A stretch of 64,000 bases of DNA from an uncultured Alphaproteobacteria bacterium. GTDB lineage: Bacteria; Pseudomonadota; Alphaproteobacteria; HIMB59. Position 1 is the first letter of the stretch. The number at the start of each line of letters is the position of its first letter. Under the pieces are notes generated by a model. The model did not search any database. It had not been told where the DNA came from and saw only the letters and a program-made list of their open reading frames with translations. Of the stretch, positions 53,319 through 57,328 are shown piece by piece. A program made the position numbers and the translations under genes. The stretch lies in contig CACKEA010000006.1 of NCBI GenBank assembly GCA_902599045.1, forward strand, positions 1 through 64,000. Reading direction: 5' to 3'.

Positions 53319-53394
53319 TGGTGGAGCCAAGGGGGATCGAACCCCTGACCTCTACGCTGCCAGCGTAGCGCTCTCCCAGCTGAGCTATGGCCCC
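53319..53394 (-). tRNA. tRNA-Ala, anticodon GGC, CCA encoded
   Basis: Reverse strand GGGGCCATAGCTCAGCTGGGAGAGCGCTACGCTGGCAGCGTAGAGGTCAGGGGTTCGATCCCCCTTGGCTCCACCA folds as a cloverleaf. Confidence 0.98.
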
Positions 53395-53580
53395 AAGTCG
53401 ATTTAGCGAGAGAACTCTCCGATAATCTGACATTGATTCTAGGAAATTAATGAATCCATAGCAATATTTTTATTATTTTGTAATACCTCTAGCTATGCAA
53501 TTTGCAGGGGGCTATATATACCTTATGTAAATGCAGTCATGCTAAAAACTAAAATTTAGTTTTGAAAGTACTTATAACTT

Positions 53581-54108
53581 TCATTCAGACTTTAATTTTG
53601 CTTGGTCCTCTAAATATTGTGCAAGAAGTCTAGCATGTGCTCCTTTAGCTTCGGTAAATGCATCATCTATAATCTCGCAAAAATGACTATTATAAATATA
53701 ACCAAAAGTTTTTAACTCTAAGCTAGCTCTGTCTATATAAAAATAATTTCTTTCTGTTAAATCAGGTAAATCAAAATTAATATTCAAATCATCAACTGTA
53801 TAATTTCCATCAAATTTATTTAATTCCGGACCTCTATCAGTCATTTTAATACGGAATGCATCTACTATAAAATTTTCTCCCCCATATATTTTTAACCACC
53901 AAGCATGTCTATTAACAAGTGGATAGTCACCTATTTGAACATGGGGTTCTAGTAAACAAAATAAACTTGTGTCTTTCTCTGGATGTGTGTCTCCCCAACT
54001 CAAAGTTGGGATTAATAACAATATGGTTAAGAGGATTTCTTTAAATAGTTGGATTAGCCCCTTACTTAAATTGAGTCGAGTAGGTGGCTTTTTTTTATGC
54101 TCCAACAA
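53581..54108 (-). CDS. Exported hypothetical protein
   Basis: N-terminal EILLTILLLIPTLSWGD signal peptide, 175 aa. Confidence 0.6.
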   Translation of the reverse strand: MLEHKKKPPTRLNLSKGLIQLFKEILLTILLLIPTLSWGDTHPEKDTSLFCLLEPHVQIGDYPLVNRHAWWLKIYGGENFIVDAFRIKMTDRGPELNKFDGNYTVDDLNINFDLPDLTERNYFYIDRASLELKTFGYIYNSHFCEIIDDAFTEAKGAHARLLAQYLEDQAKLKSE

Positions 54109-54118
54109 TTTTATAAAA

Positions 54119-54487
54119 TTATTTTTTCATTGCGTTAAACGCACTTAAAGTGTCATCATAGGCTACAAACTTAAACAACTTATCATCTTTTACCTCCATG
54201 TAATGTCCAAAAATTGTATCCATGCCATCAGCGGTTGCTTTTGTATTTACAAAAACTTTATCACCTTCGCTGATCATCGACTCTACGGTAAGATGAAAAT
54301 TGCTCCAGAGCTCAGGGACTTTCATTAATTGTTTTTGATAACCCTCTTTATTATGAGTTCCTGAAAATGGGTGTTTATCACCTGGGTATATGAAAGTAAA
54401 ATCTTCATGTACCAAATTCATGAAACCCTCCATATCCCCTTTCGCAAAGAGATCATAACCTTGTTGTACTAATTCTTTTGAGTCCAT
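54119..54487 (-). CDS. NTF2-like protein (paralog A)
   Basis: MDSKELVQQGYDLFAKGDMEGFMNLVHEDFTFIYPGDKHPFSG; near-identical to 55741..56109. Confidence 0.85.
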   Translation of the reverse strand: MDSKELVQQGYDLFAKGDMEGFMNLVHEDFTFIYPGDKHPFSGTHNKEGYQKQLMKVPELWSNFHLTVESMISEGDKVFVNTKATADGMDTIFGHYMEVKDDKLFKFVAYDDTLSAFNAMKK

Positions 54488-54607
54488 AATTTATCCTTCC
54501 CTATTAGAAGTTTATAACATGTCACACAAAAATTAATTATTACAAATAACTAATAAATAAATTAATAATTTTAATTAATAGATAAGTATAAATACAATCG
54601 AAGACAA

Positions 54608-54667
54608 CTAATTGTTCGCCAAACTCAAACTAGGGATTAATAACAATAGGGCTAAGAGGGTTTTCAT
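54608..54667 (-). pseudogene. Orphan signal-peptide stub MKTLLALLLLIPSLSLANN*
   Basis: Reverse-strand ATG at 54667; DNA resembles the signal-peptide region of the 53581 gene. Confidence 0.5.
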
Positions 54668-54691
54668 TTCTCTAAAACATTAGTAGCATCA

Positions 54692-55081
54692 CTAAATAAA
54701 TTTTTCTTTTCTAATGTAACCCACTTTAGTTGTTTTAAAATATTTGAAAGGAACATTTAGATCTTCAATTGCTTTAATTGTTTCATCTGTAATATTACCG
54801 TAAACTTCTATTTCAAATTTATCTGCTATTTCTTGATGTTTTTCTACATATGCTACAACAGGAGGATTATTAATGTGGTGAACCATTGCTTCACTGGTAC
54901 GGTAGACTTCACTCCAGGTAAATTCTAATGGATCTGTTGGATCTTGATCGAAAGTATGGATCAACATATCTGGTTCTGAGGCATTAACAGAGTCATCAGC
55001 TTCTTTAGCTATCTTGAGATACTCTTCAACCTTACCTTCTTTTACACGTATTCTCGCTATTAAAATAAAAGGATTAGACAT
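54692..55081 (-). CDS. Antibiotic biosynthesis monooxygenase (ABM)-like small protein
   Basis: FILIARIRVKEGKVEEYLKIAKEADDSVNASEPDMLIHTF. Confidence 0.75.
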   Translation of the reverse strand: MSNPFILIARIRVKEGKVEEYLKIAKEADDSVNASEPDMLIHTFDQDPTDPLEFTWSEVYRTSEAMVHHINNPPVVAYVEKHQEIADKFEIEVYGNITDETIKAIEDLNVPFKYFKTTKVGYIRKEKFI

Positions 55082-55090
55082 TTTATAATA

Positions 55091-55366
55091 CTAATTTCCA
55101 CCTTCTAACATAATGAATGTTTGAGTTTCAAGATCTACTCCTGCTTCTGTTCTTAATTTTAACATTGAAGGCAAATTAAGCATTTCTTGCATTCGCTCCA
55201 TAGACTCAACCTGAAGAACTGTATAAATTTCATCTTTATTATCTTTGGGATGTCCATAAGCTAATACAGTAACCCCATATTCTTGCCTTAAACTGTCGTT
55301 TTCATCAAACGCTTGTTTCCAATGCTCATAATCTTTAGTTATTTTTGCGTGTGATATGATTTTCAT
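55091..55366 (-). CDS. Small protein, paralog of 57059..57328
   Basis: MKIISHAKITKDYEHWKQAFDENDSLRQEYGVTVLAYGHPKDN. Confidence 0.7.
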   Translation of the reverse strand: MKIISHAKITKDYEHWKQAFDENDSLRQEYGVTVLAYGHPKDNKDEIYTVLQVESMERMQEMLNLPSMLKLRTEAGVDLETQTFIMLEGGN

Positions 55367-55387
55367 TATTAAACTCCTTAAAATTTA

Positions 55388-55705
55388 TTAAACTAAAGTA
55401 TCTGTTTTTGCACCGGCTATAATGGAAGGCCCATCAATAACTTCGTGCTCTTTAGTTGTAAAATTAATAAAGTTTTCATGTGTAGATAAAAACTCAAAAA
55501 TTGCGCCTTTTTTATAATTATCAAGACTTTCTGAGTCTTTAAATATGTATACCCCACCAAATAAATTATCTTTTTCATCGCCTAAAAAATATTTTGATAT
55601 TAGGCCTTCTACACCTCTAAAATCCATTGCATCGATATGGGCTTGTGATTTAAAAGAGTCAACATCCAAGCCACTGAGGTTAAAATTTATTATCAAAATT
55701 TTCAT
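55388..55705 (-). CDS. YdhR-like putative monooxygenase
   Basis: FRGVEGLISKYFLGDEKDNLFGGVYIFKDSESLDNYKKG. Confidence 0.7.
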   Translation of the reverse strand: MKILIINFNLSGLDVDSFKSQAHIDAMDFRGVEGLISKYFLGDEKDNLFGGVYIFKDSESLDNYKKGAIFEFLSTHENFINFTTKEHEVIDGPSIIAGAKTDTLV

Positions 55706-55740
55706 TTTTTTTTATCCTTTCTAATTATTTTTTATAACTT

Positions 55741-56109
55741 CTATTTTTTCATTGCATTAAACATACTTAAGGTGTCATCATAAGCTATAAACTTTGACAT
55801 TTTACCATCTTTAACTTCCATGTAGTGTCCAAAAATTGTATCCATGCCATCAGCGGTAGCTTTTGTGTTCACAAAAACTTTATCACCTTCACTAATCATT
55901 GATTCTACCGTAACTTGAAGATTACTCCAGAGCTCAGGGATTTTCGTTAATGTGCCTTGAAAACTCTCTATGTTATGAGTTCCTGAAAATGGGTGTTTAT
56001 CACCTGGGTATATGAAAGTAAAATCTTCATGCAACATATTCATGAAACCTTCCATATCACCTTTTCCAAAGAGGTCATAAACTTTTTGTACTATTTCTTT
56101 TGAGTCCAT
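55741..56109 (-). CDS. NTF2-like protein (paralog B)
   Basis: About 101 of 122 residues identical to 54119..54487 by manual count. Confidence 0.85.
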   Translation of the reverse strand: MDSKEIVQKVYDLFGKGDMEGFMNMLHEDFTFIYPGDKHPFSGTHNIESFQGTLTKIPELWSNLQVTVESMISEGDKVFVNTKATADGMDTIFGHYMEVKDGKMSKFIAYDDTLSMFNAMKK

Positions 56110-56138
56110 AATTTAACCTTTCCTATTCAAATCTATAC

Positions 56139-56609
56139 TCAGTCCGGCATAGTTATATTAATTTTTCCTGCGTATGTACCACCATGTAAGTGAGCACCTG
56201 TAACTTTCCATTCAGAGGTACCCTTAATACCCTCAAATTTACCAGTTCCGGCCTGAATAATATTTTGTCCTCCACCAAGAGCTGGATTGAAACTTCCAGA
56301 CAACATAAAAGTATCACCACTCATATCGGAAATATGACAATTTATGTTTACCCAGATAAGTGATGTGTCTTCGTTTAACATAGCTTTAGAAGTACAGTCA
56401 GATGATGTAAGTGATGGAAAAAATTCTGGTTGATTGGTGTATTGGACCACATGAACATCACGAAAATCTGCTAACACTTTACCAGATGCTAAATTTTTTG
56501 TCACATTTGGCTCTGCTTCAAGCCAACTTCCCTCAAATTCAAAACTATATTCTGCTGAAATAGAATTTGTTGCGTAAAGTAAAAAAATAAAAATAAAGAA
56601 TTTTTTCAT
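56139..56609 (-). CDS. Exported hypothetical protein
   Basis: Signal peptide MKKFFIFIFLLYATNSISA; 156 aa. Confidence 0.65.
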   Translation of the reverse strand: MKKFFIFIFLLYATNSISAEYSFEFEGSWLEAEPNVTKNLASGKVLADFRDVHVVQYTNQPEFFPSLTSSDCTSKAMLNEDTSLIWVNINCHISDMSGDTFMLSGSFNPALGGGQNIIQAGTGKFEGIKGTSEWKVTGAHLHGGTYAGKINITMPD

Positions 56610-56695
56610 TTTTAATCTCCTTTTTTAAATATTATAAAAAATTTATTAAATTTTGATTAACTTCTTCAATGTTTTTATTGCATGATAACCATGTA

Positions 56696-56714
56696 CCAGC
56701 TGAGCTATGGCCCC
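56696..56714 (-). repeat. 19-nt exact copy of the 5' end of tRNA-Ala (GGGGCCATAGCTCAGCTGG)
   Basis: ccagctgagctatggcccc at 56696-56714, identical to 53376-53394, same orientation. Confidence 0.95.
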
Positions 56715-56733
56715 GCTTTTAAAACGAGTATAG

Positions 56734-56988
56734 TTACATTTTTTCTAATTTATATACAACATCTACGTTATTAAATTTGGCATCAAATTCTTTAGATCTC
56801 GGATCATCAAAAATTGCATAAAATTTCTCTTCATCTGTAACATTTGCAACAACTATAACTTTTCCATCTCTAACAAAGCCCATTTCAAATCCATCCGTAA
56901 ACTTCGCAATATCATCCTTAAATGATTCATATAATTTTAAATAATCTTCCTTCGTCCCATCAAAGGTGGATACAACACATATATTCAT
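56734..56988 (-). CDS. Small protein, possibly dimeric alpha-beta barrel type
   Basis: 84 aa, MNICVVSTFDGTKEDYLKLYESFKDDIAKFTDGFEMGF. Confidence 0.6.
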   Translation of the reverse strand: MNICVVSTFDGTKEDYLKLYESFKDDIAKFTDGFEMGFVRDGKVIVVANVTDEEKFYAIFDDPRSKEFDAKFNNVDVVYKLEKM

Positions 56989-57058
56989 TTTATTTTTCTC
57001 CTTTATTTTATTATAAATTAGTTTTATGAATGTTAAATTAAAACTTAAGGAGGAATAT

Positions 57059-57328
57059 ATGAAAATAATTATAAGTGCAAAAATAACCGAAGGTTATCCA
57101 AAGTGGAGAGACGCTTTTGTTAGTGCAGATGGTTTAAGAGAGAAACATGGTTTGAAAGTTTTAGCTTGGGGTCATCCTAAAGGTGATGAAAATAAGGTTT
57201 ACCAAGTTGTTGAAGTCGAGTCGATGGAGAAAATGCAAGAGGCTATTAAAGATCCAGAAATTGAAAATCTAAGATCAAATGCAGGTGTTGATTTTGAGTC
57301 TCAAGAAGTAATTGTCTTGGAAGAGTAG
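57059..57328 (+). CDS. Small protein, paralog of 55091..55366
   Basis: RBS AAGGAGG then MKIIISAKITEGYPKWRDAFVSADGLREKHGLKVLAWGHPKGD. Confidence 0.75.
   Translation: MKIIISAKITEGYPKWRDAFVSADGLREKHGLKVLAWGHPKGDENKVYQVVEVESMEKMQEAIKDPEIENLRSNAGVDFESQEVIVLEE

Follow-up and report, generated by a model that had tools for sequence, protein, structure and literature searches.

How did the first 19 nucleotides of a tRNA gene come to lie, as an exact copy, more than 3 kb away from the gene itself in an uncultured alphaproteobacterium of the HIMB59 lineage? The question is raised by a 64,000-nt stretch of DNA (contig CACKEA010000006.1 of assembly GCA_902599045.1, positions 1 to 64,000; hereafter the window), whose single tRNA gene, tRNA-Ala with the anticodon GGC, was placed by both ARAGORN and Rfam at 53319–53394 of the minus strand. 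Nucleotides 1–19 of this gene (GGGGCCATAGCTCAGCTGG, 53376–53394) recur exactly at 56696–56714, also on the minus strand. Integration at tRNA genes is textbook knowledge, and the segment between the two copies is very probably the remnant of a small integrative cassette that was inserted into the 5′ half of tRNA-Ala(GGC).

The displaced tRNA 5′ end and its empty site

The 19-mer has only these two matches in the window, even when up to three mismatches are allowed, and 100 dinucleotide shuffles of the window yielded none. No third exact copy is present in the whole assembly of the window's own genome (designated G000; the other G numbers denote comparison genomes, many of which are fragmented draft assemblies). 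The two copies are separated by 3,301 nt, which corresponds to an offset of 3,320 nt from copy to copy. The original prediction, made from the letters of the window, had described an exact repeat in the same orientation that was very unlikely to be due to chance. Both statements hold, and what it did not spell out is the minus-strand setting: since the tRNA gene and the repeat both lie on that strand, the second copy is located upstream of the tRNA 5′ end.

An exact empty site is found in the sister genome G012, which runs uninterrupted across the insertion point of G000 and has neither the segment nor the fragment. With positions counted on the tRNA strand from the tRNA 5′ end, −4498 to −3302 of G000 (flank plus 19-mer) corresponds to −1186 to +18 of G012 (92.5 % identity), and 0 to +1185 of G000 to 0 to +1186 of G012 (92.8 % identity). 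In G012, a gene of 84 amino acids (aa) ends 18 nt short of the intact tRNA gene; in G000 it ends 19 nt short of the fragment. Because both this gene and the flank match the empty site, the 19-mer is identified as the displaced 5′ end of the original tRNA gene. The upstream sequence switches exactly at tRNA nucleotide 1. None of the genomes examined carries the fragment without an insert; in G031 the segment is present without the fragment, with the homology beginning exactly at the fragment's last base, a pattern consistent with loss of the fragment.

The original prediction had allowed for integration or tandem duplication at the tRNA gene. If the tRNA region had been duplicated and one copy had then decayed, a tRNA 5′ end present twice in direct orientation would be accounted for, but the intervening genes are not a duplicated flank and do not occur at the empty site. 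Moreover, the two copies have unrelated upstream regions, the new one differing from the ancestral one. Such a duplication is regarded as very unlikely. The other alternative, a direct repeat of the attachment-site (att) type left by integration, is upheld by the empty site in G012 and by independent cases at the same and at other tRNA genes.

Under integration, a tyrosine integrase now gone from G000 would have crossed an att site of the cassette with the tRNA gene, in the window copy most likely within the anticodon loop. The cassette would have brought its own tRNA 5′ half, and the tRNA gene would have been rebuilt by joining this half to the 3′ half already in place; the 5′ half that it replaced would have been pushed 3.3 kb upstream together with its own upstream region, and later trimmed to 19 nt. 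Since the 5′ half would have been supplied by the cassette, the rebuilt tRNA should be transcribed from the cassette's upstream DNA, which would presumably act as its promoter. A search of this new upstream region (53395–53470) returned only a weak resemblance to a promoter, which shuffled sequences equal. As the 19-mer pattern revealed no further copy of the tRNA in the assembly, the rebuilt single-copy gene must serve.

Recurrence of 5′ fragments at tRNA genes

Across 52 genomes of the genus, fragments of tRNA 5′ halves are repeatedly found upstream of the genes for tRNA-Ala, -Thr, -Arg and -Met, sometimes in stacks. The original prediction had proposed a search for other tRNA 5′-end repeats in the genome, and G000 itself has a second 5′-type unit, at tRNA-Arg. 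Exact tRNA-Ala 5′ fragments lie upstream of the gene, in the same orientation, in G064 (19 nt, 2.0 kb away), G069 (41 nt, 4.7 kb), G006 (52 nt, 2.2 kb) and G074 (38 nt, 5.0 kb), and a 40-nt fragment occupies the same place in the gene order of G032, where the contig stops before any tRNA. The inserts at tRNA-Ala differ among genomes, except that the cargo of G064 is common with that of G000. At tRNA-Thr, 37-nt fragments were found in G004, G064, G066, G072, G003 (two) and G071 (three, one of which is exact for only 32 nt). At tRNA-Arg, 39-nt fragments occur in G014, G018, G025, G066, G068 and G073, with two each in G005, G028 and G035, and shorter exact matches in G000, G004, G006, G010 and G012; these insertions are partly shared by descent, and the genomes do not all represent independent events. 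The units at tRNA-Thr and tRNA-Arg measure about 1.1 to 3.8 kb.

As read directly from the sequences, well-preserved fragments stop 0 to 3 nt past the 7-nt anticodon loop. The loop ends at nucleotide 38 in tRNA-Ala (fragments of 38, 40 and 41 nt), 37 in tRNA-Thr (37 nt), 38 in tRNA-Arg (39 nt) and 39 in tRNA-Met (40 nt), and among the Ala fragments those of G069, G074 and G032 have this endpoint, as have the well-preserved ones at tRNA-Thr, -Arg and -Met. Judged from sequence, it is that of the classic anticodon-centred tyrosine-integrase crossover, with the polarity reversed.

Among 34 loci with an identical 76-nt tRNA-Ala gene, seven families can be distinguished by the 60 nt on the upstream side and eleven by the 60 nt on the downstream side, which indicates that both sides of the gene are insertion boundaries. 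Differing gene blocks were observed between the tRNA-Ala 3′ end and a conserved 68-aa gene at eight loci (L067, L069, L073, L080, L090, L091, L094 and L095). The 3′ side thus also appears to be an insertion hotspot, and no clear 3′ tRNA fragments were seen downstream of tRNA-Ala in those eight loci.

End repeats of the cassettes

Most units contain a pair of short direct repeats, helically spaced at 10–12 bp and typically about 70–90 nt inside the left end (distances are counted from the fragment end), and a second pair about 60–80 nt before the next tRNA copy, or about 115 nt in G006 and G074. Examples of the repeated words are GCCCGTAAT, TGTGTACTGAG, CCGGTA, TGCATAA, TGTAGAATG, CGTCGGT and TGTTATCAC. 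In a set of 26 non-redundant units, the left end bears such a pair in 20 and the right end likewise in 20; for comparison, other spacings gave 0 to 3, and interior windows 47 of 603. Since the search windows were set after the sequences had been viewed, these counts are descriptive, and the stronger test is the agreement of left and right words, which is greater within one cassette than across different ones (p about 5e-5, the lowest value attainable with 20,000 permutations). We read the end repeats as putative arm-type sites of integrases. The words differ among cassettes at one tRNA target, which suggests that several integrases with different arm specificities have been at work. In the tRNA-Arg cassettes, the first ~60 nt past the fragment are nearly identical despite differing cargo.

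The second 5′-type unit of G000, outside the window (G000:C1:245924-247649, L221), has well-matched arm repeats, with GCCCGTATAGAGCCCGTA at both ends, and a remnant of an integrase N-terminus.

Integrases and their probable loss

In agreement with the original prediction, the domain search of the window open reading frames (ORFs) found no integrase between the repeats. Elsewhere in the genus, two 5′-type elements keep an integrase that starts beside the tRNA 5′ end, and most cassettes are devoid of one. In the G069 insert, the gene for a tyrosine integrase of 327 aa (PF00589, E=6.6e-19) starts 99 bp from the tRNA-Ala 5′ end and reads away from it, and a 6.9-kb element with a G069-like layout and a 40-nt 5′ fragment is present at tRNA-Met of G031. 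No integrase was found in the tRNA-Thr or tRNA-Arg units. Where the integrase would be expected, the tRNA-Arg cassettes of G000 and G004 contain a reading frame that matches an integrase N-terminal-domain profile, built from related integrases with the query frame left out (E=5e-5 and 4e-4), and that gave no match in Pfam. The profile match makes it probable that at least one cassette type descends from an element whose integrase lost its catalytic part.

Only two genes of G000 belong to PF00589; their products measure 329 and 286 aa, sizes that recur throughout the genus, and are probably XerD and XerC. Relatives of the G069 integrase were found neither in G000 nor in IMG/VR, and the 5′-half patterns of tRNA-Ala and tRNA-Met, used as candidates for the phage attachment site (attP), had no match in IMG/VR. 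Three IMG/VR contigs with the tRNA-Thr 5′ half as attP were rejected, as they hold other tRNA-Thr genes and no matching integrase.

Related integrases are also found at tRNA-Thr of G001, in the 3′ polarity. At tRNA-Gly of G035, G060 and G011 (L110, L111 and L133), two identical full tRNA copies lie about 6 kb apart, and in G035 and G060 a related integrase is located between them, starting beside the 5′ end of one copy. In G022:C2 (L115; 7042–7111 and 10349–10425), a tRNA-Met-like copy whose 5′ end is degraded and whose anticodon is CTT, called tRNA-Lys by ARAGORN, lies beside an integrase, with the intact tRNA-Met 3.3 kb upstream; this copy is probably a decaying duplicate.

Whether the units of the genus together form a cassette-capture system at tRNA 5′ ends is, in our estimation, evenly balanced. 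In such a system, integrase-less cassettes with specific arm pairs would insert serially at the anticodon loop, mobilized in trans by rare complete elements, each replacing the upstream region of an often single-copy tRNA gene, and the window cassette would be a worn member.

State of the window copy

Several features of the window copy weigh against its origin by integration. The fragment stops at nucleotide 19, in the D loop and not in the anticodon loop, and the same repeat and profile searches as were applied to its siblings revealed neither arm repeats nor an integrase remnant in the cassette. Moreover, in G064 and G004 the 19-mer follows, and continues the reading frame of, a DNA repeat of ~50 nt that encodes a signal-peptide start (MKTLLALLLLIPSLSWG) and opens otherwise unrelated cargo genes, which indicates that rearrangement has acted here. 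The sequence behind the 19-mer is common to G000, G064 and G004; together with the point at which the G031 homology starts, this indicates that the truncation is older than G000.

The continued reading frame in G064 and G004, and the draft state of many sister assemblies, might also be taken as signs of a chance similarity, a piece of coding sequence or an assembly error. In G000, however, the 19-mer begins at tRNA nucleotide 1 behind the true tRNA flank, shuffled sequences never produced it, and the arrangement recurs across independent assemblies, which leaves this explanation exceedingly improbable. The 19-mer as coding sequence was rejected for G000, where the flank matches the empty site.

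Homologous exchange, in which fragment, cargo and tRNA of a relative recombined via conserved flanks or shared repeats, is a possible, if less probable, alternative to site-specific integration. It would fit the cargo and right end of G000 and G031, which are alike at about 93 % over 2.9 kb, the recurrence of signal-peptide repeats in cargo genes, which in G004 flank the cargo at both ends, and the absence from G000 of any integrase beyond the two genus-wide forms. Nevertheless, such exchange explains how an insert spreads among relatives and not how a fragment beginning at tRNA nucleotide 1 arose in the first place, nor why fragments at other tRNA genes have the lengths, and their cassettes the matched arms, that are observed.

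If the segment was inserted as an integrative cassette, the question arises whether it still moves. In G004, part of the window cargo and the tRNA-Ala 19-mer (with one mismatch) are found in a 1.4-kb unit before tRNA-Thr, which has its own 37-nt tRNA-Thr fragment, indicating that cargo moves between tRNA sites. This second location, and the many units of the genus that have kept their ends but lack an integrase, would suit a live satellite or mobilizable cassette served by an integrase in trans. On the other hand, the left att copy of the window is truncated, arm repeats are not visible, the six cargo ORFs searched include no phage or packaging genes, and the G069 integrase has no relative in G000; a live element is accordingly thought unlikely. 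With its 19-nt fragment and neither arms nor an integrase remnant, the window cassette is judged degenerate, and the copy is probably a relic that no longer moves rather than a working satellite. Of the two terms used in the original prediction, minimal island is apt, and satellite, in the sense of a currently mobile element, was not borne out and is improbable for this copy.

Relation to known systems

Cis-mobilizable elements (CIMEs) are att-flanked elements without an integrase, known beside conjugative elements at tRNA 3′ ends. Like them, most cassettes described here lack an integrase, and they are stacked in tandem at tRNA genes; putative att sites lie at their ends, the left copy being truncated in the window and intact in many siblings. 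Unlike in CIMEs, no conjugation genes were seen here, and the arms vary among cassettes. Phage satellites of the phage-inducible chromosomal island (PICI) type or the related PICMI type are a poor match, as the window cassette contains no integrase, and searches of six of its seven ORFs against PHROG and NCBIfam revealed no phage or packaging genes, with at most one weak match, to a PHROG of unknown function.

The 5′ polarity, which the original prediction had called atypical, is indeed rare: of the 3,919 islands in Islander, 3,760 have a 3′ fragment and 159 a 5′ fragment (PMC4383910). The 5′-fragment islands resemble the present arrangement in that an intact tRNA gene and a displaced, same-orientation fragment upstream of it bracket foreign DNA, and in a crossover near the anticodon loop (PMC4383910), which is the probable one here. 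The features by which islands of the Islander type are recognized include an intact tRNA gene, an end fragment in the same orientation on the correct side and an empty site in a relative, all of which are present here (the last in G012); an integrase gene, found in the G069 and G031 elements, is absent from the window cassette. Since Islander demands an integrase and at least 2 kb (PMC4383910), most cassettes described here would be rejected, and tools with such requirements for an integrase or a minimum size overlook them. In archaea, pTN3-like integrases use the tRNA 5′ half, and the tRNA is then expressed from the integrase promoter, while a similar situation in bacteria has been termed seldom encountered (PMC8371274). 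In contrast to those plasmid or virus elements with their own integrase, the units described here are bacterial, short, mostly integrase-less and stacked.

A further parallel may be the additive island fGI-2 of 'Ca. Methylopumilus', where the sequence ACCAGCTGAGCTAATCCCCC, published as the last 20 nucleotides of tRNA-Lys, recurs as a marker of the island (PMC10872708). The reverse complement of ACCAGCTGAGCTAATCCCCC is plainly a tRNA 5′ end that stops in the D arm like the window 19-mer, so that fGI-2 may have the same 5′ polarity, and the shared 19/20-nt D-arm endpoint might mark a second crossover point. Both are variable islands of a streamlined aquatic bacterium with ~20-nt tRNA-end repeats, although fGI-2 belongs to a Beta-type lineage and lies at tRNA-Lys (PMC10872708). 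The tycheposons of Prochlorococcus, as far as their citation in PMC10872708 goes, are likewise cargo-carrying, tRNA-associated elements of streamlined marine bacteria, with a tyrosine recombinase and a reported size of 4–200 kbp. The literature searched, in which subscription journals were poorly covered, yielded no account of cassette arrays that lack integrases and have matched arms at tRNA 5′ ends, which is not proof of absence.

If the genus-wide pattern is true, these streamlined ocean bacteria swap gene packets of 1–5 kb via tRNA 5′ ends, with every such swap rewiring the control of a tRNA gene. Matching arm sites would then predict which integrase moves which cassette, and the movement of integrase-less cargo islands in the open ocean would thereby become directly testable.

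Features and cargo of the window cassette

The cassette contains seven ORFs of 91–175 aa, all on the tRNA strand (Table 1). Its G+C content (about 0.30–0.33) is the same as that of its surroundings, and the cassette therefore does not look foreign by composition.

Table 1. Coordinates of the tRNA-Ala(GGC) locus and of the inserted cassette in the window
Feature	Position	Strand	Basis or remark
Intact tRNA-Ala(GGC), rebuilt gene; 5′ half putatively from cassette, 3′ half resident	53319..53394	-	ARAGORN/Rfam; 76 nt invariant in 34 sister loci
New upstream region of intact tRNA	53395..53470	-	Common to G031 and G021 only (three-genome upstream family)
Inserted cassette, 3,301 nt	53395..56695	no strand	Missing from G012, flanks collinear
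ORF, 175 aa, probably secreted	53581..54108	-	Has signal-peptide repeat
ORF, 122 aa, SnoaL-like	54119..54487	-	PF12680, E=5.6e-12
Signal-peptide repeat, reduced to 19-codon remnant	54610..54673	-	
ORF, 129 aa, ABM-type monooxygenase domain	54692..55081	-	PF03992, E=5.1e-10
ORF, 91 aa, no family assigned	55091..55366	-	Relative at 57026-57328
ORF, 105 aa, YdhR-like	55388..55705	-	PF08803, E=1.5e-11
ORF, 122 aa, second SnoaL-like copy	55741..56109	-	PF12680, E=2.8e-12; DNA 85% identical to first
ORF, 156 aa, probably secreted	56139..56609	-	Also before tRNA-Thr in G004
Displaced 19-nt 5′ end of original tRNA-Ala gene, putative truncated left att copy	56696..56714	-	Preceding flank = flank of intact tRNA in empty-site G012
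Original tRNA upstream region, orphaned	56715..56760	-	Same sequence precedes intact tRNA in G012
Candidate -10-like TATACT (by eye) in orphaned upstream region	56727-56732	-	
Resident 84-aa gene marking left flank	56734..56988	-	

One pair of related small proteins is divided between cassette and resident DNA, with the gene at 55091–55366 inside the cassette and that at 57026–57328 outside it. The signal-peptide repeat occurs in 21 of 40 genomes searched, all of this genus, and in none of 15 genomes from other genera. Its sites include 54610–54673 and 53994–54038 of the window, G004:C1:7830-7880, G005:C1:106-110 kb and G000:C4:30-39 kb, among others, and it may serve as a homologous-recombination point for the exchange of cargo.

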